Origin: Parasedimentitalea psychrophila
Lineage (GTDB): Bacteria; Pseudomonadota; Alphaproteobacteria; Rhodobacterales; Rhodobacteraceae
DNA: 64,000 bases
Assembly: GCF_030285785.1 (NCBI RefSeq)
Contig: NZ_CP127247.1
Coordinates: forward strand, 2,813,501 to 2,877,500
Direction: 5' to 3'
A program made the translations under genes and the position numbers. Within the stretch, counting starts at the first letter, position 1; each line of letters begins with the position of its first letter. Positions 5,841 through 24,105 of this stretch are shown here, piece after piece. The notes below the pieces were generated by a model. The model was not told where the DNA came from. It was given only the letters and a program-made list of their open reading frames with translations, and searched no databases.

Positions 5841-6989
5841 GGCGGTTTCAACGGGTCGACGCAACACTTTAGTCTTTATGGAAAGACGGAGTGTAAATCA
5901 TGGCCTATCGCCGCAGACATTTTTTTACAGATAAACAGAAGTCAGAGATCTGGGATCGTTGGCAACGCGGAGAGTCGATGAGTTCGATTGGACGTGGATT
6001 TGATCGTGCATCATCATCGATTTATCCTCTGCTGGCGCGCACCGGTGGTATCCGTCCGCCAGATCGCATGAGGTCCCGTTTGGCTCTGAGTTTGGCTGAA
6101 CGCGAGGAGATATCACGAGGCCTGACTGCGCAACTATCTGTGCGATCAATTGCGAGATCCTTGAAACGGTCTGCGTCGACCATCAGCCGCGAGATCCGGC
6201 GCAACGGTGGTGCCAAACTTTACCGTGCGGCTCAATCAGATGCAGCGGCATGGGCTCGTGCCCATCGCCCAAAGCCCTGTAAATTGGCAGGCAATATCTA
6301 TCTATGTCGAGCGATATCGGCCAAGCTGACCCGCAAATGGTCCCCGCAACAAATCGCAGGTTGGCTGATGCGCGAACATCCCGATGAGGAAGACAAACGG
6401 GTCTCCCACGAGACGATCTACCGAAGCCTATTTATCCAGACACGCAATGTACTTAAGAAAGAATTGCTGTCGCACTTGCGGGCGACGCGATCCATTCGTC
6501 GCTCTCGCCACGCCACCATGAAGCGCAGCGGCCTTGGCCAAATCAAGGACACTATATCGATCCGACAAAGACCGGCGGATGTGGAAGACCGTGCCGTTCC
6601 AGGACACTGGGAAGGCGATTTGATCGCCGGTTCTGGCAACAGCTTCATTGCCACGTTGGTCGAGCGACATACGCGTTATGTGATGCTGGCCAAGGTTGGC
6701 AACAAAGACAGTCACAGCGTTGTTCAGGCGCTGATCAAGCAAGCTCACAAACTACCAAAAGAACTCTACCGTTCACTGACATGGGATCGTGGAAGCGAGA
6801 TGGCGGGGCACAAGAAGTTTACCTTGGCGACTGAGATCGACGTCTATTTCTGTGATCCGCGATCACCGTGGCAACGCGGCACGAACGAAAACACCAACCG
6901 TTTGCTGCGACAGTACTTCCCAAGGGGCACAGATTTGTCGATACATAGTCAAGCAAAGCTGAGTGCCGTCGCAAGACAGCTCAATGAAC
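5841..6989 (+). mobile_element. IS30-family element, copy 1, missing its right end
   Basis: The left inverted repeat starts with GGCGGTTTCAACGGGTCGAC at 5841 and is identical to the left end of the intact copy at 17385. Sequence identity runs to 6989, where an IS3 element begins. The last part of the transposase gene and the right inverted repeat are absent, also from the far side of the IS3 element, so the loss was an insertion plus deletion and not a simple insertion. Confidence 0.88.
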
Positions 6990-7090
6990 TGAACCTCGTC
7001 CCTGTTCCCAGACACTGGGGTACTTTACCCCTGTCCATGAAAGGGGCACCAAATGGGACGACAGCGACGGAATTATACGGACGATTATAA
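5900..7090 (+). pseudogene. IS30-family transposase, 3' truncated and fused to IS3 DNA
   Basis: Identical to the intact transposase at 17444 through the residues AVARQLNE (about residue 363). After that the frame reads into the left end of the IS3 element and gives 33 unrelated residues. The N-terminal helix-turn-helix (about 10-95, with SIARSLKRSASTISREI) and the DDE core (Asp in GHWEGDLI, Asp in TWDRGSEM, Glu in RGTNENTN) are still present. Only the C-terminal 22 or so residues are replaced, so residual activity cannot be excluded, but the lost right terminal repeat would stop it moving its own copy. Confidence 0.85.
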
Positions 7091-7349
7091 GGCTGCGGCA
7101 GTTGAACGGCTTTACGAGCCAGGAGCGACGCAGGGTAGCGTGTCGAGCGAGCTTGGGATCACCGGTACACAACTGAAGACGTGGAGGCTTGAGATTGAGG
7201 CGTTTGGTTCATCAGAAGCCAAGCGCCGTCAGAAGGCGGATGCCGCTGAACTGGTCCGCCTTCGCAAAGAGAACAGGCGTCTTGCTGAGGAAGTGGAGAT
7301 TTTGCACAAGGCATCCGCTTTTTTCGCAACGAGGGCGGTGAAACCATGA
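7053..7349 (+). CDS. IS3-family transposase OrfA
   Basis: A 98-residue DNA-binding subunit. A helix-turn-helix (YKAAAVERLYEPGATQGSVS, about 11-45) is followed by a leucine-zipper-like segment (ELVRLRKENRRLAEEVEIL, about 65-85), the usual OrfA layout. GGGGCACCAA precedes the ATG. It overlaps OrfB by four bases (ATGA), so a fused OrfAB transposase could be made by a -1 frameshift, as is known for IS3 elements; I did not identify a slippery site with certainty. Confidence 0.88.
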   Translation: MGRQRRNYTDDYKAAAVERLYEPGATQGSVSSELGITGTQLKTWRLEIEAFGSSEAKRRQKADAAELVRLRKENRRLAEEVEILHKASAFFATRAVKP

Positions 7350-8245
7350 CGAACAAGCACAGCTTCGTCACTGCCCATAAAGCGCAATATGCGGTCTCCA
7401 CATTATGCCGACACCTCAAGATATCTCGGGGTTGGTTCTATGGCTTTCTGACCAGTCAGGACGCCCGAGATCAGCGGCGTACCATCCGTGAAGCGCGAGA
7501 TCTGGAGTTGCTGCCAAAGATAAAGGCGTTTTTCAAAGCCAGCGGGAAATGCTATGGGTCCAAGCGTATTCATCAGGATCTAATGGCTGATGGTGAGATC
7601 GCTTCTGAGCGGCGTGTGGCGATAATAATGAAAGAAAACAAGGTGTCTCCGCTTCTGCGTAAGCGCCGAAAGCCCAAAACTACTGACAGCAATCACGACA
7701 TGAAGCCTTCACCAAATCTATTGGAGCAGAAGTTCAACTGCCAGACGCCCAACGCCGTTTGGCTGGCGGATATTACCTATATCGACACGGATGAAGGGTG
7801 GCTTTACTTGGCTGGCATCAAAGACATGTCCACGCGGGAGATTGTTGGCTGGGCGATGGAGGACCATATGCGGGCAGAGCTCTGCTGTGAGGCCCTGAAG
7901 ATGGCTCTGGCGCGACGAGGGCCCGTTTCCGGATTGATCCACCATTCCGACAGGGGGAGCCAGTATGCAGGTGGGAAATACCGCAAGCTAATTGGCAAGG
8001 CCTCCATCACCCAATCCATGAGCCGCAAAGGAGAATGCCTGGATAACGCGCCAATGGAGAGCTTTTTTGCTTCATTGAAAAAAGAACTCGTGCATCGCCA
8101 TCGGTTCAGAACGCGCGCTCAAGCCAAAGCTGCAATCTTCGAATACATTGAGGTCTTCTACAATCGCCAGCGCCGCCACTCCAGTATCGGCTACAAAACG
8201 CCCCTGCAGGCATTTGAAGATACAGCTTTGAAAATGGCCGCATAG
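7346..8245 (+). CDS. IS3-family transposase OrfB (DDE catalytic subunit)
   Basis: A 299-residue integrase-core protein. An HTH_21-like region (KCYGSKRIHQDLMADG, about 65-100) precedes the rve domain. The catalytic triad is visible: Asp in VWLADITYI, Asp in IHHSDRGSQY and Glu in NAPMESFFASLKKE, the last 35 residues after the second Asp as expected. The ending RHSSIGYKTPLQAFE is the family C-terminus. The gene is full length and looks active. Confidence 0.93.
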   Translation: MTNKHSFVTAHKAQYAVSTLCRHLKISRGWFYGFLTSQDARDQRRTIREARDLELLPKIKAFFKASGKCYGSKRIHQDLMADGEIASERRVAIIMKENKVSPLLRKRRKPKTTDSNHDMKPSPNLLEQKFNCQTPNAVWLADITYIDTDEGWLYLAGIKDMSTREIVGWAMEDHMRAELCCEALKMALARRGPVSGLIHHSDRGSQYAGGKYRKLIGKASITQSMSRKGECLDNAPMESFFASLKKELVHRHRFRTRAQAKAAIFEYIEVFYNRQRRHSSIGYKTPLQAFEDTALKMAA

Positions 8246-8269: not shown

Positions 8270-8722
8270 TTAGGGACGAGGATCACTCTTGCTTGTATAT
8301 GCCTCGAAGACCTGCAGCGTTTCTTCACTGACGTGATGCTCGATACCCTCAGCATCATGTTCTGCAACATCGGAAGACACGCCCAAAGCAATCAGAAACT
8401 CAACAACAGTGCGATGACGTTTACGGCAAGCCGCCGCGAGCTGCCGACCTTCGTCGGTCAACTGAATTGAGCGATAAGGTTCGTGCAGGATCAATTCCTC
8501 GCGTTTAAGACGCGCAAGGTTCTTTGTCACAGTCGGTTGTGCAACGCCCAGTCGTTCAGCGATGTCCTTGGGGCGTGCAGAGCCATACTGATGAATGAGA
8601 TCTGCAATCAGTTCGACATAATCCTCCACTATCTCACTTTGATGGGCCGTACGCACAGATTCAAACTGGCGGACTTGGTCTTCAACGGCGCGCGTAACGG
8701 GATTTGAATGAGGCTTCATCAT
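8270..8722 (-). CDS. mntR: MntR-type metal-dependent transcriptional regulator
   Basis: A 150-residue DtxR/MntR-family regulator. The winged helix carries RPKDIAERLGVAQPTVTKNL (about 50-70). The metal ligands of Bacillus MntR are recognisable: VEDYVELI gives the Asp and Glu of helix 1 (Asp34, Glu37), RKRHRTV gives the His, and DAEGIEHHVS gives the Glu-x-x-Glu-His set. Known MntR proteins use manganese (or iron) to bind DNA and repress uptake genes. I take the ATG at 8722; the frame is open to 8794 but that would cover the operator. The final residues DPRP and the stop come from the end of the adjacent IS3 element, so the native C-terminus was replaced. Divergent from the peroxidase/ABC operon. 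Confidence 0.85.
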   Translation of the reverse strand: MMKPHSNPVTRAVEDQVRQFESVRTAHQSEIVEDYVELIADLIHQYGSARPKDIAERLGVAQPTVTKNLARLKREELILHEPYRSIQLTDEGRQLAAACRKRHRTVVEFLIALGVSSDVAEHDAEGIEHHVSEETLQVFEAYTSKSDPRP

Positions 8723-8775
8723 TGGGAAATTGTACTCTGATTGGCGTGGCCCAGCTATGCACGAAAAACAGGCGC

Positions 8776-8819
8776 TTGACAATAAGTTAGCCATGGCTAA
8801 TTAAGTTAGCCAAGGATAA
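8776..8819 (+). promoter_or_regulatory. Promoter with a double MntR-like operator
   Basis: TTGACA at 8776-8781 and TAATTA at 8798-8803 (16 bp apart) form a plausible promoter for the peroxidase operon. A perfect 14-bp palindrome, TTAGCCATGGCTAA (8787-8800), lies between the two promoter boxes. A second imperfect copy, TTAGCCAAGGATAA (8806-8819), follows immediately. The half-site TTAGCC is like that of DtxR-type boxes. That MntR binds here is an inference from position and symmetry. Confidence 0.65.
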
Positions 8820-8833
8820 CTTTTGGACACGCA

Positions 8834-10687
8834 ATGAAACGATTTTTGACCACAACTGTTTTGTGCCTGCTGCCCGTGACGGCACAGGCCACCGCGCTTG
8901 AAGACGCTCCTTGGGCCCCTCGTGCCGCCGCATATCGTCTGACATTGTTTTTGGGAAATCTTGATCCGTTGCCATGGGGCAAGCTGGAAAACAGCTGGAC
9001 CGCTCCTGTCACCGGCAGCGCACCCAATGTGTCTGCAATGTCCAAGATGTCTGACGCCGAGGCCTCCGCGGTCACATTGGCTGTTGAAAACCAGGACCGC
9101 CACGCGCTGTTCATGGCTGCGACTGATGTGGTGGAAAACGGGATTTTACAATTCCTCGCAGCAGCGAATGATGCGCTTGGCACGGCAGACGCGGCACAAA
9201 ACGTTGCCCGCGCCGAGGCCCTGTACCGTGCATTCGCCGATGGCATTCAGGCAGGCGATCGCGCTGGCTTTCGCACCCTTGGGCGGGCTTGGTTAACCCT
9301 GAATTCAGCCGTGGGAAGTGCCGGGCTATCGCAATCCGGGGCACCTGATCCCGACCGTGAAGCCTTTACTGAGGCACGTGAGGTGATTGAGACATATCTG
9401 CGCGACAACTTTACAGCTGCCAATATCGCGCCACGCGCCAAACTAACTTCTGTGCCCGAGACCATTGTCCAGTCAGGGGCACAGATTGATGTCCCGGTTT
9501 CGCTCCCTCCTGGATCTGACATCGCCGATCAGCGCGAATTCCCCCGTCTGGTACTGCAATTCGAAGAAGCGGGCCTTGATGAGGCTGACATGCCGCTGGT
9601 TGCCTATGGCGATATGCTGTTTGACAGCCCGCAGATTTTCGGCGGACCGGCGCGCGACTTGGGCATCTCTTGTTCTACCTGTCACAACCGATCTGACGTG
9701 AACCGTGATTTTTTCATTCCCGGCCTCAGCAGCCATGCGGGCGGGATGGATGTGGACGGGTCGTTCTTTAACCCGATGTTCAATGACCGCACCGATGACC
9801 ACCTTGATACGCCATCCTTGCGCGGCATCCGCTTTACTGGCCCATATGGCCGCGATGGGCGCGAAGCCAGCCTGCGCGATTTCACCCGCAACGTGATCGT
9901 CACCGAATTTGCAGGCGAGGAACCGACACCGTTTCAACTAGATGCTTTGCTGGCTTACATGCGTCAGTTTGATTTCCTGCCCAACCCGCAGATTGATCGA
10001 GCAGGGAGATTGACCGATCAAGCCTCTGACGCTGCAAAGCGGGGTGAAGTGCTGTTCAGCACACCTTTTGATGGCCTGAACGGTCGTGCTTGCGCCACAT
10101 GCCACACGCCGGATCGCAGCTTTCGCGATGGTCAAACCTATGACATCGGAACCTCTGAAGCACCGTTTGAGGGCGGCACAGTAACACAGCTTGAAACCCC
10201 GACGCTGCGCAACATCAACTTCTCAGCTCCCTATATGCATGATGGTAGCCTGCCGACACTTGGTCGTGTGGTGGAGTGGTTCAATGACAGCAAATCCCTC
10301 AACCTTGATGCCGAAGAACGGGCCGATCTGACCGCTTACCTAGAGGCCGTTGGCGATGGCCAGGACCCCTACCAGGTGTTTGAAGGTCGCGAGAGCACTT
10401 TCCGTCTCGCCTTTGATGAGCTCACCACTTTTGCCTCGACCCTAAACACGCTTATCCCAATGCAGGACGCTGAAAACATTTCGCTATTGGTAGATACCGT
10501 TGCACCTGATTTGGCGGCTGACGCCTCGGTCATGGTCAATCAAGCAGCCAAACCGGATGTATATCGATTGTCTGCGCATCTGCGGGCCGTGGGCGATGCC
10601 AGTGCCGCTGGCAACTGGGGCGACGCCGCCACCGCGTGGGAGTCCTTCAAAGCCCTGCAATCTAAAATCAATGAAGGGATGTACTAA
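8834..10687 (+). CDS. Exported di-heme cytochrome c peroxidase (MauG/CcpA-like) with an extra N-terminal domain
   Basis: A 617-residue protein with a Sec signal peptide (first ~20 residues, ending TAQATA) that places it in the periplasm. Two c-type haem sites are visible: CSTCH at residues 280-284 and CATCH at 420-424. The segment TPTLRNINFSAPYMHDGS near 455-472 is typical of the peroxidase C-terminal domain. Bacterial di-heme peroxidases reduce H2O2 or oxidise a protein or metal substrate. Ordinary members have about 330-400 residues; here about 240 residues of unknown fold precede the first haem. It opens the operon and overlaps the next gene by one base (TAATG). The link to MntR suggests a role in oxidising or mobilising a metal, which is an inference. 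Confidence 0.87.
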   Translation: MKRFLTTTVLCLLPVTAQATALEDAPWAPRAAAYRLTLFLGNLDPLPWGKLENSWTAPVTGSAPNVSAMSKMSDAEASAVTLAVENQDRHALFMAATDVVENGILQFLAAANDALGTADAAQNVARAEALYRAFADGIQAGDRAGFRTLGRAWLTLNSAVGSAGLSQSGAPDPDREAFTEAREVIETYLRDNFTAANIAPRAKLTSVPETIVQSGAQIDVPVSLPPGSDIADQREFPRLVLQFEEAGLDEADMPLVAYGDMLFDSPQIFGGPARDLGISCSTCHNRSDVNRDFFIPGLSSHAGGMDVDGSFFNPMFNDRTDDHLDTPSLRGIRFTGPYGRDGREASLRDFTRNVIVTEFAGEEPTPFQLDALLAYMRQFDFLPNPQIDRAGRLTDQASDAAKRGEVLFSTPFDGLNGRACATCHTPDRSFRDGQTYDIGTSEAPFEGGTVTQLETPTLRNINFSAPYMHDGSLPTLGRVVEWFNDSKSLNLDAEERADLTAYLEAVGDGQDPYQVFEGRESTFRLAFDELTTFASTLNTLIPMQDAENISLLVDTVAPDLAADASVMVNQAAKPDVYRLSAHLRAVGDASAAGNWGDAATAWESFKALQSKINEGMY

Positions 10688-11547
10688 TGCTGAGCCGTCG
10701 CACATTACTTGCATCGATCACCGCGCTCGCGCTCACCACATCGAGTGCGCTCGCCCAAGACACCCTGAAAATTGCATTCATCCCGCAAGAAAACCCCGAA
10801 AAACTATTGGGGGATATTGATGTCATCACCACATGGATGGGCGAACAACTGGGTGTGCCAGTTCAGGGTTTTGTGACCTTTGACCACGCTGCCGCTGTTG
10901 AAGCATTGCGCAATGGCGACGCTGATATCTCGTTCATGGGGGCACTGCCATTTGTGCTGGCCGAAGCCCAAATCGGGGCGGAACCACTGGTGTCAGAGGT
11001 CTACCGGGGCTATCCGAGCTACGCGGGTCGGATTTTTGTGCGCAAGGACAGCGGCATCGAAACGCTTGCTGACCTGCAAGGGCGCGACATTGCGTTTGCC
11101 GATCCCGTGTCAGAGTCTGGATATCTGTATCCACTTGATTTGTTTGTCGAGGACGGCTTGTTCACAGGCACCCAAGGGGCGGCGGAGTTCTTTGGCAACA
11201 GCTTCTTTGCTGGTGGTTATCAGCAAGCGATGCAGGCGATGGCAAACGGTCTTGTTGATGCGGCAGGGGCCAGTCAATATGCCGATATGCTCTTGTCTCC
11301 AGAGCAACAGACCGAAATCAAGGTGATTGGTGAATCCGTGCAAATCCCCAGTCATGCGATCATTGCGCGCCCAGACTTGGCTGCAGAGATGAAAGTCAGG
11401 TTCACGGATATGATGCTGACGCTAAACGCCCCAGAGAACGGTCACTTTTTGGCGTATCTTTATGGCCCGGATGGCTATGTCGTCGCCGATGTCGCGGCCT
11501 ATGATGGCGTACGGGATATAGCACGAAAATACGGATTGCTCGAATGA
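10687..11547 (+). CDS. PhnD-like periplasmic substrate-binding protein
   Basis: A 286-residue binding protein with a signal peptide (SRRTLLASITALALTTSSAL, cleavage near AQD) and the PhnD/phosphate-phosphite-phosphonate fold. Visible family marks are IAFIPQENPEKL near the N-terminus, LRNGDADISFMGALPFVLA (about 75-95), VRKDSGIETLADLQGRDIAF and SESGYLYPLDL. It delivers ligand to the ABC permease encoded 770 bp downstream. PhnD-like proteins are often annotated as phosphonate-binding, but no phosphonate gene is nearby, and the MntR-like operator and peroxidase argue for a metal or metal complex. Start and stop overlap both neighbours, so translation is coupled. Confidence 0.85.
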   Translation: MLSRRTLLASITALALTTSSALAQDTLKIAFIPQENPEKLLGDIDVITTWMGEQLGVPVQGFVTFDHAAAVEALRNGDADISFMGALPFVLAEAQIGAEPLVSEVYRGYPSYAGRIFVRKDSGIETLADLQGRDIAFADPVSESGYLYPLDLFVEDGLFTGTQGAAEFFGNSFFAGGYQQAMQAMANGLVDAAGASQYADMLLSPEQQTEIKVIGESVQIPSHAIIARPDLAAEMKVRFTDMMLTLNAPENGHFLAYLYGPDGYVVADVAAYDGVRDIARKYGLLE

Positions 11548-12314
11548 CCGCATGCCTGTCTCTTTGTGGTGTTTCCCATGAATTTGACGGCGTTGCCGCG
11601 TTGAGCAACATCAACCTTTCTGTGTCCGAAGGCGAATGCATTGCATTGCTTGGGCCATCGGGCGCAGGGAAGTCCACATTGCTGGGGTTGCTGGATCGCC
11701 GCTTAAAGCTGGGTTTTGGCGAGGCTCAGGTTCTGAATAAATCCCTTAAAAAAGGCCAACGTATCACGCGTAAGGATCGCTCTGATGTTGGGTTTGTCTT
11801 TCAGGAGTTCGCCCTGCTGGACCGCGTGAGCGTGTACCAAAATGTCATGAATGGCCGTATGGGGCACACGCGACGTTGGCCCTCTCTTTGGGGCTGGTTT
11901 GAGACCCAGGATCATCTGATTGTTGCACGTGCTTTGGCTGATGTTGGCCTATCTGATTTTGCAGATAGGCGTGCGGATCAGCTTTCTGGCGGGCAACGTC
12001 AGCGCGTTGCAATCGCACGCTGTCTTGCACAAGAACCACGCCTGATCTTGGCCGATGAACCCGTTAGCAATCTTGACCCGTCGCGGGCTGAAAAATTGCT
12101 AGACCTAATTACATCACGCGTTCAAGAGGATGGGATGACCGTCATTTTCAGCTCTCATCAACCTCAACTTGCGCAGCGTTTTGCAGACCGTGTCATTGGG
12201 CTGCGCGATGGTAAAATCATGTTTGATAACCCCGCAGCACAGCTTACCCAGAAAGACGTCGCCCAGCTCTATGATGGTTTTCACCCAGAAACTGATCTGC
12301 GTGTGGTCAACTGA
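11544..12314 (+). CDS. ABC transporter ATP-binding protein (PhnC-like)
   Basis: A 256-residue cytoplasmic ATPase that powers the importer. Walker A is GPSGAGKST at 37-45, the signature is LSGGQRQRVAIAR near 150, Walker B is LILADEPVSNLDP and the switch His is in FSSHQPQ. The length and the early QEFALLDRVSVYQNV stretch fit the PhnC branch. It overlaps the binding-protein gene by four bases (ATGA) and the permease gene by one base (TGATG), the arrangement of a tight operon. Confidence 0.92.
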   Translation: MTACLSLCGVSHEFDGVAALSNINLSVSEGECIALLGPSGAGKSTLLGLLDRRLKLGFGEAQVLNKSLKKGQRITRKDRSDVGFVFQEFALLDRVSVYQNVMNGRMGHTRRWPSLWGWFETQDHLIVARALADVGLSDFADRRADQLSGGQRQRVAIARCLAQEPRLILADEPVSNLDPSRAEKLLDLITSRVQEDGMTVIFSSHQPQLAQRFADRVIGLRDGKIMFDNPAAQLTQKDVAQLYDGFHPETDLRVVN

Positions 12315-13057
12315 TGACACGGAACTTGATCTGGATACTGATCGGTGGGGCCGTAATCTGGGCTGGACTCAGCGCAGATATCAGCACTGACAAACTCTCG
12401 TCAGCCGCGCCACGTCTGGCGGATTTTCTGGCACGTATGTTCCCCCCGGACTGGAGCGTCTGGCCCGAAATCCTGAAAGGTTTGCTTGAATCCCTGCGCA
12501 TTGCAATCCTTGGCACATTCTTCTCGGTGATCTTGTCCGCGGGCCTTGCGGTGCTGGCTTCGGAAAAACTGTTCCCCCACCTGGTCTGGCGTCCCGTGCG
12601 CGCTTTTCTTGCGATGATCCGGGCGATTCCTCTCATTGTGGTTGCGATGTTGATGGTGGGGTCTGTTGGTTTGGGACCACTGCCAGGCATTTTAGCAATC
12701 ACATTCCATGCGACCGGTATGCTGGCCAAATTCTATGCCGAAGCGATCGACAATGTCGCCTCGGCTCCCGTCGCAGCCCTGGAAAGCGCTGGTGCCTCTC
12801 GTGCGCAACAGCTGCGTTGGGGGATTTGGCCGCAAATGGCTCCGGTTATCCTGCGTGATACCATTTTCCGCTTTGAGCTAAATTTACGTGAAAGCTTGGT
12901 CTTGGGGATCGTTGGTGCAGGAGGGATTGGTTTGTATGTCCAAACTTACGTACGCTCCTTCCAATATGATAAAGCAGCAGCCGTGACCCTCGCGATTGTT
13001 ATTCTGGTCCTGATTTCAGAATTGGTTGCAGTGATAGTGCAGCGAAGGTTTTCCTAG
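12314..13057 (+). CDS. ABC transporter permease (PhnE-like)
   Basis: A 247-residue inner-membrane permease, about six helices. The EAA loop that docks on the ATPase is visible as ALESAGASRAQQLRWGIWPQ (about 152-171). PhnE proteins are usually 260-290 residues, so this is on the short side but complete. It closes the peroxidase/PhnD/PhnC/PhnE-like operon. No terminator hairpin is obvious after it; a repeat remnant and an IS91-like element follow at once. Confidence 0.88.
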   Translation: MTRNLIWILIGGAVIWAGLSADISTDKLSSAAPRLADFLARMFPPDWSVWPEILKGLLESLRIAILGTFFSVILSAGLAVLASEKLFPHLVWRPVRAFLAMIRAIPLIVVAMLMVGSVGLGPLPGILAITFHATGMLAKFYAEAIDNVASAPVAALESAGASRAQQLRWGIWPQMAPVILRDTIFRFELNLRESLVLGIVGAGGIGLYVQTYVRSFQYDKAAAVTLAIVILVLISELVAVIVQRRFS

Positions 13058-13497: not shown

Positions 13498-14691
13498 TCA
13501 TGCGGCCTGCTCCCTCGGTGGTGCCCTCGATCTTGGTTGTTGCCCGCGGCGGAATATCTCGACAATGCGCATCGGTCCGCCACAGCAAGGGCACGGCTCC
13601 CGTAGAGTGAGAGGGATAATCTCGGCGCTTTGCTGGACCTCCTGGTCAGGCGGCTCCACCTCAAGCAGGGCGCGTATCCTGGCGATGTTGGCCTTGCGGG
13701 TCGAGCTGGCCAGCAAGCCATAGTGACGGATGCGGTGGAAGCCGTCGGGTAGGACATGGATCAGGAAGCGGCGTATGAACTCGCCGGTGGAGAGGCGCAT
13801 GACCCTCTGCCGGTTGCTATTCTTGATGCGATAGTCTTTCCAGTGGAAGGTCACGGCCTCGGCGTCTGCGTTGACCAAGCGGGAGTTCGATATGGCGACA
13901 CGATGCGTATAGTGGCTGAGATAGGCCAGTACCGCCTCTGGCCCACCAAAGGGCAGTTTGGCATAGACTACCCATTCGGATTTGCGGAACGGGGCGAGCC
14001 AAGTAGCAAACGTGTCAGCCTTTGCCAACCCACCCAGATCCCCGAAGAAGCTCAGTTCGCCTGCGTTATGGAGGGCCATCAATCCTTCGATAAAGAGGCG
14101 GCGGAACAGCCTGGACAGCACCCGCACATGCAGAAAGAACCCCGGTCTGCATTTGATCCAGCCTACGCCATCCGGCAACAGGCCGCCGCCGGGCACGATC
14201 ATATGCACATGGGGATGATGTGTTAGTGCTGATCCCCAAGTGTGCAGCACGCTTGTCATACCAACGCGTGCGCCGAGGCGCTTGGGATCGGCCGCGATGG
14301 TCATTACCGTTTGGGCGGACGCCTTGAACAGCAGGCTATAGACTGCCTTCTTATTCCAATATGCGATGCGGGCAATCTCGGCAGGCAGGGTGAAGACGAC
14401 ATGGAAATACTCTACCGGCAACAGGTCCTCAGCACGCGCCGCCATCCAGTCCCGTGCGGCTGGCCCCTGGCACTTCGGGCAATGCCTGTTTTTGCAGGAG
14501 TTATAGGCAATATGGCCGTGGTCGCATTTGGTGCAAGCCGCCACATGGCCACCGAGCGCCTCGGTCCGGCAGGCCTCTATCGCCGACATCACCTTAAGTT
14601 GGCTGAGGCTGATATGCCCAGCATTGGCCTGCCGCCATGCGGGACCGTACTTTCGAAAAATATCAGCAATCTCCAGCTTCGAACGAGACAC
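13498..14691 (-). CDS. IS91-family (Y2, HUH) transposase, copy A
   Basis: A 397-residue rolling-circle transposase. An N-terminal zinc-binding part (CTKCDHG, CKNRHCPKCQG, about 50-75) is followed by the HUH metal site HHPHVHMIV (about 155-165) and the tyrosine motif YLSHYTHRVAIS (about 262-275) with two Tyr four residues apart. A CPCCGGPM zinc knuckle sits near the C-terminus. The protein nicks DNA at the element end and stays bound to it. It starts 12 bases after the recombinase stop, so the two are one operon. Identical to the copy at 21877. Confidence 0.93.
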   Translation of the reverse strand: MSRSKLEIADIFRKYGPAWRQANAGHISLSQLKVMSAIEACRTEALGGHVAACTKCDHGHIAYNSCKNRHCPKCQGPAARDWMAARAEDLLPVEYFHVVFTLPAEIARIAYWNKKAVYSLLFKASAQTVMTIAADPKRLGARVGMTSVLHTWGSALTHHPHVHMIVPGGGLLPDGVGWIKCRPGFFLHVRVLSRLFRRLFIEGLMALHNAGELSFFGDLGGLAKADTFATWLAPFRKSEWVVYAKLPFGGPEAVLAYLSHYTHRVAISNSRLVNADAEAVTFHWKDYRIKNSNRQRVMRLSTGEFIRRFLIHVLPDGFHRIRHYGLLASSTRKANIARIRALLEVEPPDQEVQQSAEIIPLTLREPCPCCGGPMRIVEIFRRGQQPRSRAPPREQAA

Positions 14692-14703
14692 CGGCCCCGA
14701 GCG

Positions 14704-15591
14704 TCACTCCAACCCTCGTCGGAGCGTGTGATCCTGCAACTGTTTGAGGTTGTCGAACGGGCTGACCGTATTGCGGATCGTCTTAGTGGCGACGTGGGTG
14801 TAGCGCGCTGTCGTGCTCAGCTTGGAATGACCCAACAGGACCTGGATCACCCGCACATCGGTATTGGCCTCCAGCAGATGGGTCGCAAAACTATGCCGCA
14901 GAGTATGCAGTGTCGCCGGTTTGTTGATCCCCGCCATGTGCTTTGCCGAGGTGAAGGCGCGATTGAGCTGGCGTGGTGACAGCGGATTGATCTTGGGTTT
15001 TCCGGGAAATAGCCAGCCCTCGGGTCGTGCCTCAAGCCAATAGTCCCGCAGCAGTTCCAAAAGCCTTCGCGACAGCATCGCCTTACGGTCTTTGCCATTC
15101 TTGCCCTCGTCGACATGGATCAACATCCGGTCGCTGTCGATGTCGGCCACTTTGAGGTGGCAAACTTCGGACGCCCGCAACCCAGCGCCATAGCTAATGC
15201 CCAAAGCAGCCCGATACTTGAGGCCAGGACCAGGAACGGCTGTCAGCAGATCGGATACCTCCTCGACGCTGAGCACAACGGGCAGTTTATTCGGTTTGCG
15301 TCGGAACTGCATGTATCGCTTCATCTCTTCGCGCCCGCAGGTCACGCCGAAAAATAGTCTGAGCGAGACGATCCGGGTGTTGAAGGTCGTCGTCGAAACG
15401 TCAGTGTCTGTCATGTGCAACTGATAGGCGCGCAACTCATCTGGTGTTGCGGTATCAGGCGAGCGGCCAAGGAAAGCCGCAAAATGTTTAATCGCACGGA
15501 TATGCCCTTTCTGCGTCAACTCCTTCAGTCCGCGAATGCGCATATCCTCGATCATCCGCGCTCGCAGCGACGTTGTCTTCTCCTCTTTCAT
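14704..15591 (-). CDS. Tyrosine recombinase carried by the IS91-like element, copy A
   Basis: A 295-residue integrase with a SAM-like core-binding domain (about 15-95) and catalytic residues Arg in YGAGLRASEV, Lys in DEGKNGKDR, HxxR in HTLRHSFATH, His in LLGHSK and Tyr in TTARYTHV. The ATG at 15591 is chosen because AGGAGG lies seven bases upstream; the longer frame to 15699 lacks such a site. Several IS91-type elements carry such a gene, perhaps to resolve circular forms. Identical to the copy at 23083. Confidence 0.9.
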   Translation of the reverse strand: MKEEKTTSLRARMIEDMRIRGLKELTQKGHIRAIKHFAAFLGRSPDTATPDELRAYQLHMTDTDVSTTTFNTRIVSLRLFFGVTCGREEMKRYMQFRRKPNKLPVVLSVEEVSDLLTAVPGPGLKYRAALGISYGAGLRASEVCHLKVADIDSDRMLIHVDEGKNGKDRKAMLSRRLLELLRDYWLEARPEGWLFPGKPKINPLSPRQLNRAFTSAKHMAGINKPATLHTLRHSFATHLLEANTDVRVIQVLLGHSKLSTTARYTHVATKTIRNTVSPFDNLKQLQDHTLRRGLE

Positions 15592-15726
15592 GGAAGCCTC
15601 CTGTCTAAAGATTGAGAAGGCCCAATCGTCGAACAGGTTCGTCAGAATACAAAATGCACAGATTTTGCGTAGGTGTGGAACGCTCAACACGAGCGCCATT
15701 GCCGCGAGAGCGGCTTAGTCCTTCCG

Positions 15727-16082
15727 ACCTTCGTGACGCCGGTAAGCTCTCCTAGTTTCGGGTTTTCGCAGATGCAGCGAGTGGCGGATATGGCCGCAGC
15801 CTGGCCCGTGCTGCACATCGTCTTGAAGGTCCTCTGTGGATGGCTCCTGCATTGCAAGCGTTTTTCGGCGATTTCGGAGCGTTTTGTCAGTACAGTCGTC
15901 TGTCCGGCCTGTTTGTGCAGCACTTTCAAAATACTGCTGGCCCTGATGGTTTCCGCGAGCGAGGATCCAAACGGCTTAACGACCTCAAAGGGCCGGTGAC
16001 CTTCCCGGAGTGTCCTGGCTCTTGGTTGACTTGTGCCGCGTCATCACCTCATTCGTCTTGCATCTCGTGGCCGCCATGTCGC
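15727..16082. other. Region without a recognisable gene between IS91-like copy A and an IS110 transposase
   Basis: The first bases (ACCTTCGTGACG) resemble the repeat family. The rest has short frames on both strands that match nothing I know. The part next to 16083 is likely the non-coding end of the IS110-family element. Confidence 0.4.
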
Positions 16083-17108
16083 CTATGCGACTGGCTGCCT
16101 GTATTGCTGTCCTTTCGATAAAACTGCCCAGATCACTCGCGCTGACTTGTTGGCCATAGCAACCGTCGCAAGCCGGAACGGCTTTTGAGCGAGGATGTTC
16201 GCAGTCCAACGGTCTGCGCGCTCAGGATGGTTCCTTGCTTGCAGCGCGCGCGATGTCATCCCGACAACCAGTAGTTTTCGAAGGTATCTGTCGCCCATTT
16301 TCGTGATCTTTCCGAGCCTCTCTTTCCCACCACTGGATTTGTTGAGCGGGGTCAAGCCGAGCCATGCGGCGAGATCACGACCGGTTCTGAACTGGCTCCC
16401 GTCTCCAATTGTCGCCACCATCGCTGAGGCCGTGATTGGACCTATACCCGGTATACGCGTGAGGCGTCGGCAGTTTGCATCTAACAAAGCGTGTTGCTTG
16501 ATGAGCAGGGTATATCCTTCGATCCGCGCATTGAGCCCCAAAAGTTGATAGCACAGCGTTCCCAGAATACCGTTGGCTAGCTCGGGCATGTCAAATTGAT
16601 CCCCATCCATATGGCTTTGAGAAAAGCGTTTCACAGCTTCTACGCCTGTCGGCAGTACATGCCCAAACTCCCGCAGGACGCTACGGATCATGTTTACGAC
16701 TTGCGTTCTCTGCCGGACCACGAGGTCGCGGGAGCAATGCACTGCAAGGAATGCCTGTTGGTCCGTCGACTTTATCTCGACAAACCGCATCGAAGGCCGC
16801 CGAACTGCCTCGCATATCGCCTCGGCATCGGCATCGGCAGCGTCAGTCTTGCCCCGCTTCACATAAGGTTTGACATAAGCCGCGGGCATCAGTCGGACGT
16901 CATGGCCCAGTTTGCGCAGTTCTCGGCCCCAATGGTGTGCCGATCCGCACGCTTCCATGCCAACGGTGCAGGGTGGCAACGTCTCGAAGAACGCCAGCAG
17001 TTTCGCGCGCTTGATCTTCTTGTTGAAAACCTTGCGTCCGGTCTCGGATATCCCGTGAACCTGAAACACATCCTTGGCCAAATCCAGGCCTACTGTTTTT
17101 ACAGTCAT
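16083..17108 (-). CDS. IS110-family transposase (DEDD), intact
   Basis: A 341-residue transposase. The RuvC-like DEDD domain shows Asp in GLDLAKDVF, Glu in VGMEACGS and the Asp pair in GKTDAADADA. The C-terminal transposase_20 part has IPGIGPITASAMVATIG and the Ser-containing region LNKSSGGKERLGKITKMGD. The ATG is preceded by GAGAGGAGCCACCCA. IS110 elements move as circles, and some use an RNA from their non-coding end to choose the target. A shorter, damaged relative lies at 35984, and a more distant one at 53591. Confidence 0.92.
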   Translation of the reverse strand: MTVKTVGLDLAKDVFQVHGISETGRKVFNKKIKRAKLLAFFETLPPCTVGMEACGSAHHWGRELRKLGHDVRLMPAAYVKPYVKRGKTDAADADAEAICEAVRRPSMRFVEIKSTDQQAFLAVHCSRDLVVRQRTQVVNMIRSVLREFGHVLPTGVEAVKRFSQSHMDGDQFDMPELANGILGTLCYQLLGLNARIEGYTLLIKQHALLDANCRRLTRIPGIGPITASAMVATIGDGSQFRTGRDLAAWLGLTPLNKSSGGKERLGKITKMGDRYLRKLLVVGMTSRALQARNHPERADRWTANILAQKPFRLATVAMANKSARVIWAVLSKGQQYRQPVA

Positions 17109-17384: not shown

Positions 17385-18611
17385 GGCGGTTTCAACGGGT
17401 CGACGCAACACTTTAGTCTTTATGGAAAGACGGAGTGTAAATCATGGCCTATCGCCGCAGACATTTTTTTACAGATAAACAGAAGTCAGAGATCTGGGAT
17501 CGTTGGCAACGCGGAGAGTCGATGAGTTCGATTGGACGTGGATTTGATCGTGCATCATCATCGATTTATCCTCTGCTGGCGCGCACCGGTGGTATCCGTC
17601 CGCCAGATCGCATGAGGTCCCGTTTGGCTCTGAGTTTGGCTGAACGCGAGGAGATATCACGAGGCCTGACTGCGCAACTATCTGTGCGATCAATTGCGAG
17701 ATCCTTGAAACGGTCTGCGTCGACCATCAGCCGCGAGATCCGGCGCAACGGTGGTGCCAAACTTTACCGTGCGGCTCAATCAGATGCAGCGGCATGGGCT
17801 CGTGCCCATCGCCCAAAGCCCTGTAAATTGGCAGGCAATATCTATCTATGTCGAGCGATATCGGCCAAGCTGACCCGCAAATGGTCCCCGCAACAAATCG
17901 CAGGTTGGCTGATGCGCGAACATCCCGATGAGGAAGACAAACGGGTCTCCCACGAGACGATCTACCGAAGCCTATTTATCCAGACACGCAATGTACTTAA
18001 GAAAGAATTGCTGTCGCACTTGCGGGCGACGCGATCCATTCGTCGCTCTCGCCACGCCACCATGAAGCGCAGCGGCCTTGGCCAAATCAAGGACACTATA
18101 TCGATCCGACAAAGACCGGCGGATGTGGAAGACCGTGCCGTTCCAGGACACTGGGAAGGCGATTTGATCGCCGGTTCTGGCAACAGCTTCATTGCCACGT
18201 TGGTCGAGCGACATACGCGTTATGTGATGCTGGCCAAGGTTGGCAACAAAGACAGTCACAGCGTTGTTCAGGCGCTGATCAAGCAAGCTCACAAACTACC
18301 AAAAGAACTCTACCGTTCACTGACATGGGATCGTGGAAGCGAGATGGCGGGGCACAAGAAGTTTACCTTGGCGACTGAGATCGACGTCTATTTCTGTGAT
18401 CCGCGATCACCGTGGCAACGCGGCACGAACGAAAACACCAACCGTTTGCTGCGACAGTACTTCCCAAGGGGCACAGATTTGTCGATACATAGTCAAGCAA
18501 AGCTGAGTGCCGTCGCAAGACAGCTCAATGAACGACCTCGAAAAACGCTAGGATATGAGACACCTGCCGAGCGTTTCAATGCATGTGTTGCGTCGACCCG
18601 TTGAAACCGCC
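17385..18611 (+). mobile_element. IS30-family insertion sequence, copy 2, complete
   Basis: A 1227-bp element. The left end GGCGGTTTCAACGGGTCGAC... (17385-17411) and the right end, ending at 18611, are perfect 27-bp inverted repeats. AC flanks both sides, consistent with a 2-bp target duplication. One transposase gene fills it. Confidence 0.93.
17444..18604 (+). CDS. IS30-family transposase, intact
   Basis: A 386-residue DDE transposase. Two N-terminal helix-turn-helix regions include SIARSLKRSASTISREIRRN (about 75-95). The catalytic domain shows Asp in PGHWEGDLIAGSG, Asp in TWDRGSEMAGH and Glu in RGTNENTNRLLRQYFP. It ends RPRKTLGYETPAERF, the family ending. The stop lies inside the right inverted repeat. 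This is the only full copy in the window and could mobilise other copies that keep both ends. Confidence 0.94.
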   Translation: MAYRRRHFFTDKQKSEIWDRWQRGESMSSIGRGFDRASSSIYPLLARTGGIRPPDRMRSRLALSLAEREEISRGLTAQLSVRSIARSLKRSASTISREIRRNGGAKLYRAAQSDAAAWARAHRPKPCKLAGNIYLCRAISAKLTRKWSPQQIAGWLMREHPDEEDKRVSHETIYRSLFIQTRNVLKKELLSHLRATRSIRRSRHATMKRSGLGQIKDTISIRQRPADVEDRAVPGHWEGDLIAGSGNSFIATLVERHTRYVMLAKVGNKDSHSVVQALIKQAHKLPKELYRSLTWDRGSEMAGHKKFTLATEIDVYFCDPRSPWQRGTNENTNRLLRQYFPRGTDLSIHSQAKLSAVARQLNERPRKTLGYETPAERFNACVASTR

Positions 18612-21876: not shown

Positions 21877-23070
21877 TCATGCGGCCTGCTCCCTCGGTGG
21901 TGCCCTCGATCTTGGTTGTTGCCCGCGGCGGAATATCTCGACAATGCGCATCGGTCCGCCACAGCAAGGGCACGGCTCCCGTAGAGTGAGAGGGATAATC
22001 TCGGCGCTTTGCTGGACCTCCTGGTCAGGCGGCTCCACCTCAAGCAGGGCGCGTATCCTGGCGATGTTGGCCTTGCGGGTCGAGCTGGCCAGCAAGCCAT
22101 AGTGACGGATGCGGTGGAAGCCGTCGGGTAGGACATGGATCAGGAAGCGGCGTATGAACTCGCCGGTGGAGAGGCGCATGACCCTCTGCCGGTTGCTATT
22201 CTTGATGCGATAGTCTTTCCAGTGGAAGGTCACGGCCTCGGCGTCTGCGTTGACCAAGCGGGAGTTCGATATGGCGACACGATGCGTATAGTGGCTGAGA
22301 TAGGCCAGTACCGCCTCTGGCCCACCAAAGGGCAGTTTGGCATAGACTACCCATTCGGATTTGCGGAACGGGGCGAGCCAAGTAGCAAACGTGTCAGCCT
22401 TTGCCAACCCACCCAGATCCCCGAAGAAGCTCAGTTCGCCTGCGTTATGGAGGGCCATCAATCCTTCGATAAAGAGGCGGCGGAACAGCCTGGACAGCAC
22501 CCGCACATGCAGAAAGAACCCCGGTCTGCATTTGATCCAGCCTACGCCATCCGGCAACAGGCCGCCGCCGGGCACGATCATATGCACATGGGGATGATGT
22601 GTTAGTGCTGATCCCCAAGTGTGCAGCACGCTTGTCATACCAACGCGTGCGCCGAGGCGCTTGGGATCGGCCGCGATGGTCATTACCGTTTGGGCGGACG
22701 CCTTGAACAGCAGGCTATAGACTGCCTTCTTATTCCAATATGCGATGCGGGCAATCTCGGCAGGCAGGGTGAAGACGACATGGAAATACTCTACCGGCAA
22801 CAGGTCCTCAGCACGCGCCGCCATCCAGTCCCGTGCGGCTGGCCCCTGGCACTTCGGGCAATGCCTGTTTTTGCAGGAGTTATAGGCAATATGGCCGTGG
22901 TCGCATTTGGTGCAAGCCGCCACATGGCCACCGAGCGCCTCGGTCCGGCAGGCCTCTATCGCCGACATCACCTTAAGTTGGCTGAGGCTGATATGCCCAG
23001 CATTGGCCTGCCGCCATGCGGGACCGTACTTTCGAAAAATATCAGCAATCTCCAGCTTCGAACGAGACAC
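21877..23070 (-). CDS. IS91-family (Y2, HUH) transposase, copy B
   Basis: The 397-residue product is identical to the one at 13498: zinc-binding N-terminus, HHPHVHMIV metal site, paired Tyr in YLSHYTHRV. The complete identity of the copies points to a recent duplication. Confidence 0.93.
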   Translation of the reverse strand: MSRSKLEIADIFRKYGPAWRQANAGHISLSQLKVMSAIEACRTEALGGHVAACTKCDHGHIAYNSCKNRHCPKCQGPAARDWMAARAEDLLPVEYFHVVFTLPAEIARIAYWNKKAVYSLLFKASAQTVMTIAADPKRLGARVGMTSVLHTWGSALTHHPHVHMIVPGGGLLPDGVGWIKCRPGFFLHVRVLSRLFRRLFIEGLMALHNAGELSFFGDLGGLAKADTFATWLAPFRKSEWVVYAKLPFGGPEAVLAYLSHYTHRVAISNSRLVNADAEAVTFHWKDYRIKNSNRQRVMRLSTGEFIRRFLIHVLPDGFHRIRHYGLLASSTRKANIARIRALLEVEPPDQEVQQSAEIIPLTLREPCPCCGGPMRIVEIFRRGQQPRSRAPPREQAA

Positions 23071-23082
23071 CGGCCCCGAGCG

Positions 23083-23970
23083 TCACTCCAACCCTCGTCG
23101 GAGCGTGTGATCCTGCAACTGTTTGAGGTTGTCGAACGGGCTGACCGTATTGCGGATCGTCTTAGTGGCGACGTGGGTGTAGCGCGCTGTCGTGCTCAGC
23201 TTGGAATGACCCAACAGGACCTGGATCACCCGCACATCGGTATTGGCCTCCAGCAGATGGGTCGCAAAACTATGCCGCAGAGTATGCAGTGTCGCCGGTT
23301 TGTTGATCCCCGCCATGTGCTTTGCCGAGGTGAAGGCGCGATTGAGCTGGCGTGGTGACAGCGGATTGATCTTGGGTTTTCCGGGAAATAGCCAGCCCTC
23401 GGGTCGTGCCTCAAGCCAATAGTCCCGCAGCAGTTCCAAAAGCCTTCGCGACAGCATCGCCTTACGGTCTTTGCCATTCTTGCCCTCGTCGACATGGATC
23501 AACATCCGGTCGCTGTCGATGTCGGCCACTTTGAGGTGGCAAACTTCGGACGCCCGCAACCCAGCGCCATAGCTAATGCCCAAAGCAGCCCGATACTTGA
23601 GGCCAGGACCAGGAACGGCTGTCAGCAGATCGGATACCTCCTCGACGCTGAGCACAACGGGCAGTTTATTCGGTTTGCGTCGGAACTGCATGTATCGCTT
23701 CATCTCTTCGCGCCCGCAGGTCACGCCGAAAAATAGTCTGAGCGAGACGATCCGGGTGTTGAAGGTCGTCGTCGAAACGTCAGTGTCTGTCATGTGCAAC
23801 TGATAGGCGCGCAACTCATCTGGTGTTGCGGTATCAGGCGAGCGGCCAAGGAAAGCCGCAAAATGTTTAATCGCACGGATATGCCCTTTCTGCGTCAACT
23901 CCTTCAGTCCGCGAATGCGCATATCCTCGATCATCCGCGCTCGCAGCGACGTTGTCTTCTCCTCTTTCAT
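23083..23970 (-). CDS. Tyrosine recombinase carried by the IS91-like element, copy B
   Basis: Identical to the copy at 14704, with the same AGGAGG-supported ATG (23970) and the same R-K-HxxR-H-Y catalytic set. It lies 12 bases upstream of the transposase gene on the same strand. Confidence 0.9.
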   Translation of the reverse strand: MKEEKTTSLRARMIEDMRIRGLKELTQKGHIRAIKHFAAFLGRSPDTATPDELRAYQLHMTDTDVSTTTFNTRIVSLRLFFGVTCGREEMKRYMQFRRKPNKLPVVLSVEEVSDLLTAVPGPGLKYRAALGISYGAGLRASEVCHLKVADIDSDRMLIHVDEGKNGKDRKAMLSRRLLELLRDYWLEARPEGWLFPGKPKINPLSPRQLNRAFTSAKHMAGINKPATLHTLRHSFATHLLEANTDVRVIQVLLGHSKLSTTARYTHVATKTIRNTVSPFDNLKQLQDHTLRRGLE

Positions 23971-24105
23971 GGAAGCCTCCTGTCTAAAGATTGAGAAGGC
24001 CCAATCGTCGAACAGGTTCGTCAGAATACAAAATGCACAGATTTTGCGTAGGTGTGGAACGCTCAACACGAGCGCCATTGCCGCGAGAGCGGCTTAGTCC
24101 TTCCG

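Follow-up and report, generated by a model that had tools for sequence, protein, structure and literature searches.

A predicted manganese-repressed module pairing a di-heme peroxidase-like enzyme with a PhnCDE-like importer in Parasedimentitalea psychrophila

We analyzed a 64,000-nucleotide stretch of the Parasedimentitalea psychrophila genome (NCBI RefSeq assembly GCF_030285785.1, contig NZ_CP127247.1, positions 2,813,501 to 2,877,500; hereafter, the window). Positions 8270-13057 of the window hold a minus-strand mntR gene that diverges from a four-gene overlapping operon for a di-heme peroxidase-like enzyme, a substrate-binding protein (SBP), an ATP-binding cassette (ABC) transporter ATPase and a permease (Table 1). 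As in a preliminary description made from the DNA alone, whose interpretation is partly supported by the present results, the peroxidase and SBP genes overlap by 1 base, the SBP and ATPase genes by 4, and the ATPase and permease genes by 1. We somewhat favor the interpretation that the locus is a Mn-repressed metal-acquisition module, in which the enzyme acts on the metal before its capture by the SBP and import. The component families are known; a full-text search of open-licence papers found no published description of this mntR–peroxidase–PhnCDE combination.

MntR control of the operon, proposed in the preliminary description, is well supported by comparison, because a conserved operator is tied to mntR and the Mn-ligand positions of the repressor are kept. 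MntR scores 201.7 bits against NCBIfam NF008273 (cut-off 153), and the six positions that we take to be its metal ligands (D8, E11, H77, E99, E102 and H103 in B. subtilis numbering) are retained in 78/78 MntR sequences. The 174-residue mntR open reading frame (ORF) formally starts inside the palindrome TTAGCCATGGCTAA. Since homologues align from about Met25/26, the gene start is probably near 8719-8722, and given this start both operator copies would probably be intergenic. The 14-bp palindrome is exact, as originally read, and stands shortly 3′ of TTGACA; the second copy, TTAGCCAAGGATAA, has one mismatch, and the proposed placement at a −35/−10 pair holds for the adjacent TTGACA alone, as the promoter scan did not list the pair and the −10 box is thus unsupported. 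Within the window, a 19-base operator pattern occurs at just these two sites (each on both strands), with 0 occurrences in 100 shuffles. In the 5.0-Mb genome, TTAGCCNNGGCTAA is found exactly at a single place, the peroxidase promoter, and with one mismatch at 8 further places, one of which is the second operator copy; the total of 9 at up to one mismatch, against 15 for a control pattern, represents no excess. The mntR of the module is the sole DtxR-family gene found in this genome.

The operator recurs among relatives of the module, which were collected by scanning a single genome from each species; 142 loci were confirmed, and the best 80 of them were kept. By record title, most of these 80 are from Rhodobacterales or further alphaproteobacteria, and they bear out the expected mntR–peroxidase–PhnD–C–E neighborhood: mntR lies beside the peroxidase gene in 77 and an SBP gene in 79, and all five genes are present in 73, while in 4 of the remaining 7 the contig ends inside the module or directly behind it. 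When TTAGCC-N2-GGCTAA was sought in the 180 bases preceding the peroxidase gene plus its first 10 bases, it was present in 78/80 loci (exactly in 20, with one mismatch in 52 and with two in 6), whereas only 0.05% of dinucleotide shuffles of the same upstream stretches reach one mismatch or fewer. The two loci without the operator, L048 and L108, are both without an adjacent mntR; L043 has no mntR in its available stretch, yet has the operator with one mismatch. Across 48 distinct 26-base operator versions the palindrome extends to AAAnTTAGCCnnGGCTAAnTTT, and the same 22-base geometry is seen in AAACATAGCCTTTGCTATGTTT, which immediately precedes the E. coli mntH gene and is presumably the E. 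coli MntR box. Against an extended pattern composed by hand, in part from the consensus, the E. coli mntS stretch has 2 mismatches and the two copies in the window have 3 and 2.

The five genes also appear to move as one. The pairwise distances, compared gene by gene over 70 of the 80 loci (a stricter cut having left 10), show correlations of 0.90-0.97, which indicates that the five-gene unit travels together, and the neighbors of the module vary among loci. Among 72,556 plasmid records, a full peroxidase is present in 43 and a module-type SBP in 42, all 42 being among the 43 by hand comparison; in the sole peroxidase-only record, the peroxidase lies at the very start of the record. Among 60 records taken from across 919, the next SBP relatives fall to 35% identity. 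The peroxidase is present in 19/390 genomes sampled from the host's order (in two pieces in one carrier, G165) and in 2/398 sampled over the phylum, and there was no match in three genomes of the host genus. Judged from these sequences, the module is a mobile, conserved and probably self-regulated unit. On plasmids in L025-L029, and often in islands, as are also many of L030-L109, the module is seen beside genes for L,D-transpeptidases, M23 peptidase, Lnt, LspA, SCO, PCuAC and CtaG-like proteins; the island also carries ZIP and heavy-metal P-type ATPase genes, and so has the look of a metal and cell-envelope island.

A DtxR-family gene is found in 19/19 carrier genomes versus 51/371 non-carriers (Fisher P 7e-16, uncorrected for kinship). 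We hand-picked 20 non-carrier MntR loci in the host's order, one per genome, from the 51 matching genomes. Eleven adjoin Nramp and three a ZnuA-type SBP (one with only 30% identity to the probe), in 4/20 a ZIP-like gene comes after a multicopper oxidase gene, and 2/20 have peroxidase remnants. Of the 18 sampled MntR loci in which the partner is an importer or an oxidase, 17 are laid out divergently, and the operator matches at up to two mismatches in 15 of the 20 sampled 6-kb MntR stretches. The multicopper oxidase–ZIP loci (L204:1-2399, L206:3238-5636, L207:3-2176 and L208:3369-5668, all with MntR divergent), in two of which the ZIP-type C-terminal half scores 34.0 and 35.1 bits against PF02535 (cut-off 35.1), form a second pairing of MntR with an oxidase and an importer, drawn from unrelated families and standing as a parallel case. 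The module remnants (L202:3465-3626 and L203:2171-2332) consist of a 54-residue peroxidase piece and mntR with an operator-like site, and adjoin a ZIP gene and a P-type ATPase; plasmid matches H96-H100, on Dinoroseobacter, Actibacterium and Phaeobacter plasmids, cover the same peroxidase residues, 19-72. In the genome of the window itself no Nramp gene was found. Two ZnuA-type SBPs are encoded there, and one of them, which belongs to an ABC operon, resembles both Zn and Mn families, though below every cut-off; hence the module need not be the only Mn route of this organism.

The binding protein has the PhnD-type fold (PF12974, 184.8 bits) and passes the broader TIGR01098 (153.7 of 112.05), while falling below the PhnD equivalog TIGR03431 (164.7 of 261.1). 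Its ATPase partner, at 245.8 bits, is under the TIGR02315 cut-off of 266.1, and the permease, at 248.6 bits, is over the TIGR01097 cut-off of 216.7. In lobe 2, the oxyanion motif STS-H, the residues of which are phosphite ligands in PtxB according to PMC5700983, is replaced by SES-Y in 76/76 module SBPs and in 0/33 PF12974 comparators, which show SNSH (27), STSH (4), STIH (1) and SSSD (1), that is, S(N/T)S-H in 31/33. These counts cover 75 of the 79 locus SBPs, at >90% coverage (L043, L087, L091 and L104 being left out), plus that of the window, and the comparators that phmmer gave for 33 of 34 PF12974 loci. A departure of the pocket from those of phosphorus-oxyanion binders is thus seen throughout, and this signature supports an importer that is not of the phosphorus-oxyanion type. 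Further, the SBP segment PSHAIIAR contains His223, and a 29-residue query around this residue gave four PDB matches at E≤10, all of the transferrin family and in both lobes, but weak (E 0.5-1.2). Longer queries around His223 gave no PDB transferrin matches, and the Pfam transferrin model gave none at E≤1 over the whole SBP. With SES-Y in place of STS-H and a gained His in a transferrin-like segment, the SBP most likely binds a metal ion. Candidate ligands are Tyr112, Tyr178 and His223 plus a carboxylate such as Glu143, which we take to lie near where transferrins bind carbonate. A twin-arginine signal (window 10687-10760) is present in 76/76 module SBPs versus 1/33 comparators by a crude count of RR near the start (the comparators being scanned only over the 45 residues ahead of a motif), so that export of a folded SBP by the twin-arginine route is probable.

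An importer of this make could instead move an anion or an organic ligand (phosphate, phosphonate or a chelate), with Mn control being indirect. The PF12974 fold and the permease score fit such a cargo, and so do relatives such as HtxB and ArrX, which have an altered STS-H and still bind oxyanions; this variation slightly lowers our confidence in the metal interpretation and slightly raises that in an anion. Yet the invariance of SES-Y among module SBPs and the missed PhnD equivalog cut-off, together with the C-P lyase PhnJ not being found in the window's genome, make an anionic or organic cargo improbable in our view. The preliminary description had seen no phosphonate gene. This stands for PhnJ, and also for the homologous loci, where inspection of the 34 commonest neighbor families, not all identified, recognized no phosphonate genes; it must be amended for the genome as a whole, which has a second PhnD-family ABC operon elsewhere (ATPase and permeases named by inspection).

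The first gene of the operon encodes the exported di-heme protein with an extra N-terminal region that had been noted before. It belongs to PF03150 (44.2 bits, cut-off 25.6), and its two CxxCH motifs, C280-H284 and C420-H424, are invariant in 81/81 peroxidase sequences. Phe483, also present in 81/81, occupies a column that holds Met in three cytochrome c peroxidases (CCPs; 1iqc, 3o5c and 9qdt) and Tyr in MbnH (6e1c); we take the Met of CCPs, or the Tyr of MauG and MbnH, in this column to be the axial ligand of the second heme. No more than three histidines reach 95% conservation, and two of these belong to CxxCH. This Phe and the few conserved His indicate that the enzyme departs from both the standard CCP and the standard MauG type. 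A structural model places an N-terminal helical domain at about 29-228, with a predicted local distance difference test score (pLDDT) mostly around 90, and, besides the region already noted, a C-terminal helical bundle at about 523-616 (some 95 residues, pLDDT ~70-94), both with conserved Trp and Tyr. The heme domains are poorly modeled, the whole-model mean pLDDT is 64.3, and no significant fold match for the modeled peroxidase was found. PsbQ-like matches of the C-terminal bundle were set aside, being within what helical bundles give.

These features bear on two other roles for the enzyme. MntR regulons elsewhere have been linked to oxidative stress, and the peroxidase might simply remove periplasmic H2O2 when Mn, and with it Mn-superoxide dismutase, runs short, the metal importer merely sharing the operon. 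While its family is that of the cytochrome c peroxidases, the co-occurrence of peroxidase and SBP in 42/42 plasmids and 79/80 loci, the Phe at the canonical Met position and the two large extra domains render this decidedly unlikely. The enzyme could also be MauG/MbnH-like and oxidize partner residues, in the SBP or in its own helical domains, to build a metal site, with the importer then taking the metal. MbnH and MauG are indeed its closest curated families, at 57.0 and 48.1 bits, though far under the cut-offs of TIGR04039 and TIGR03791 (362.85 for MbnH and 443.85 for MauG), the helical domains offer conserved Trp and Tyr, and MbnH/CorB-type di-heme peroxidases are described in conserved pairs with their partners in PMC3621798. 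Against it, Phe483 replaces the MbnH Tyr in 81/81, Trp50 is the only SBP Trp conserved at ≥90%, and the conserved Tyr of the SBP are explicable as ligands; we consider such protein modification unlikely.

As to the cargo, manganese is more likely, with iron the main alternative. Locus L108, from a metagenome-derived genome, has a Fur-family gene (PF01475, 125 bits; L108:4664-5290) in the place of mntR, and an upstream site matches 15/19 positions of the Fur box, as compared with ≤13 in other loci. That one metal regulator stands in for another at this operon suggests that the signal which matters is a metal. Neither this exchange of regulators, nor the MntR–multicopper oxidase–ZIP loci, nor the transferrin-like segment figured in the preliminary description. 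A further palindrome, TTGCGAATTATTCGCAA, is seen in L108 where the operator would be. Transferrins carry iron, and this, like the L108 regulator, would agree with an iron cargo, or one of iron plus manganese, with MntR control reflecting the Mn/Fe balance. A heme peroxidase joined to an iron permease is moreover the EfeUOB pattern, as set out in PMC9174327. On the other hand, MntR with its full Mn-type ligand set is present in 77/80 loci, and in L108 the Fur-family gene might itself be of the Mur (Mn) type; iron thus seems to us a rather unlikely cargo, albeit one to be kept in view.

Under the favored interpretation of Mn-repressed metal acquisition, we envision the following cycle. When cell Mn is sufficient, Mn-loaded MntR, seated on one or both operator copies of the shared promoter, would repress the operon, a step well supported by comparison. 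At low Mn the four operon genes would be made together, the periplasmic di-heme enzyme would act on the metal, most likely by oxidizing Mn(II), or else Fe(II), so as to yield the trivalent form preferred by a tyrosine/histidine site of this type, the SBP would bind the metal ion through its tyrosine/histidine/carboxylate site, and the PhnC/PhnE-like proteins would carry the metal into the cytoplasm. Metal binding, metal identity, oxidation state, enzyme role and transport are here inferred. The most specific version, in which Mn(III) made by the enzyme in the periplasm is bound at a transferrin-like Tyr/Tyr/His/carboxylate site and then imported by the PhnCDE-type transporter, all under MntR repression, is a possibility that we put forward tentatively.

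Parts of this arrangement have counterparts in known systems. EfeUOB and yeast Fet3p–Ftr1p, as described in PMC9174327, likewise unite a periplasmic or surface oxidase or peroxidase, a metal-binding protein and an importer as one uptake system. EfeUOB, however, employs a heme peroxidase of the DyP type (EfeB) and a permease of the Ftr1 type (EfeU), whereas the module combines a di-heme c-type enzyme with a PhnCDE-like ABC importer under MntR, its proteins matching PF03150, PF12974, PF00005 and PF00528 and sharing no family with EfeUOB. MbnH–MbnP and CorB–CorA pair a di-heme enzyme of the same superfamily with a metal-linked partner, and copper downregulates the CorA/CorB genes (PMC3621798); in the module, by contrast, the partner is the binding protein of an ABC importer, alongside its ATPase and permease, the regulator is MntR, and the enzyme lacks the MbnH Tyr and bears large N- and C-terminal extra domains. 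MntH (Nramp) and SitABCD/MntABC (ZnuA-type) share the regulator, but the module uses an unrelated transporter family and adds a redox enzyme. Its SBP differs from PhnD, PtxB, ArrX and AioX in SES-Y for STS-H, the transferrin-like His segment and the twin-arginine signal, and from transferrin and lactoferrin lobes in having no sequence-level membership, no clear Asp ligand and a single lobe set in an ABC system.

In the window the module stands alone. Transposase-like genes stop about 25 bases from mntR, and beyond the permease lie more transposase- and integrase-like genes, all named by inspection; those around the module are at window 5900-8245, 13498-17108, 17444-18604 and 21877-24078. Several pairs of these genes start with an identical protein sequence, and the same elements are therefore repeated within the window.

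Table 1. Coordinates of the module's genes and predicted regulatory sites in the window
Feature	Position	Strand	Basis
mntR, DtxR-family Mn-responsive repressor	8270..8722 (ORF open to 8794)	-	NCBIfam NF008273; Mn-ligand positions
TTGACA, candidate -35 box by operator	8776..8781	+	sequence; no -10 box supported
MntR operator (predicted), exact palindrome TTAGCCATGGCTAA	8787..8800	.	genome scan; conserved among loci
Second operator copy TTAGCCAAGGATAA, one mismatch	8806..8819	.	sequence
Exported di-heme peroxidase-like enzyme, 617 aa	8834..10687	+	PF03150, conservation, model
PhnD-fold substrate-binding protein (SBP), 286 aa	10687..11547	+	PF12974
PhnC-like ABC transporter ATPase	11544..12314	+	PF00005; TIGR02315
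PhnE-like ABC transporter permease	12314..13057	+	TIGR01097

The bacterial Mn importers known so far take up Mn(II), mostly by way of Nramp or ZnuA-type ABC proteins, and seawater contains much ligand-bound Mn(III). How cells obtain Mn(III) is a question that a mobile, Mn-repressed peroxidase–ABC module makes testable. Some annotations as "phosphonate ABC transporter" may hide metal importers, for which SES-Y provides a quick test, and the SBP would provide a natural example of how an anion-binding fold can change over to metals. If the Mn(III) scenario is true, oxidation-coupled import would have arisen a second time, independently, in the MntR–multicopper oxidase–ZIP pairing of the same order.

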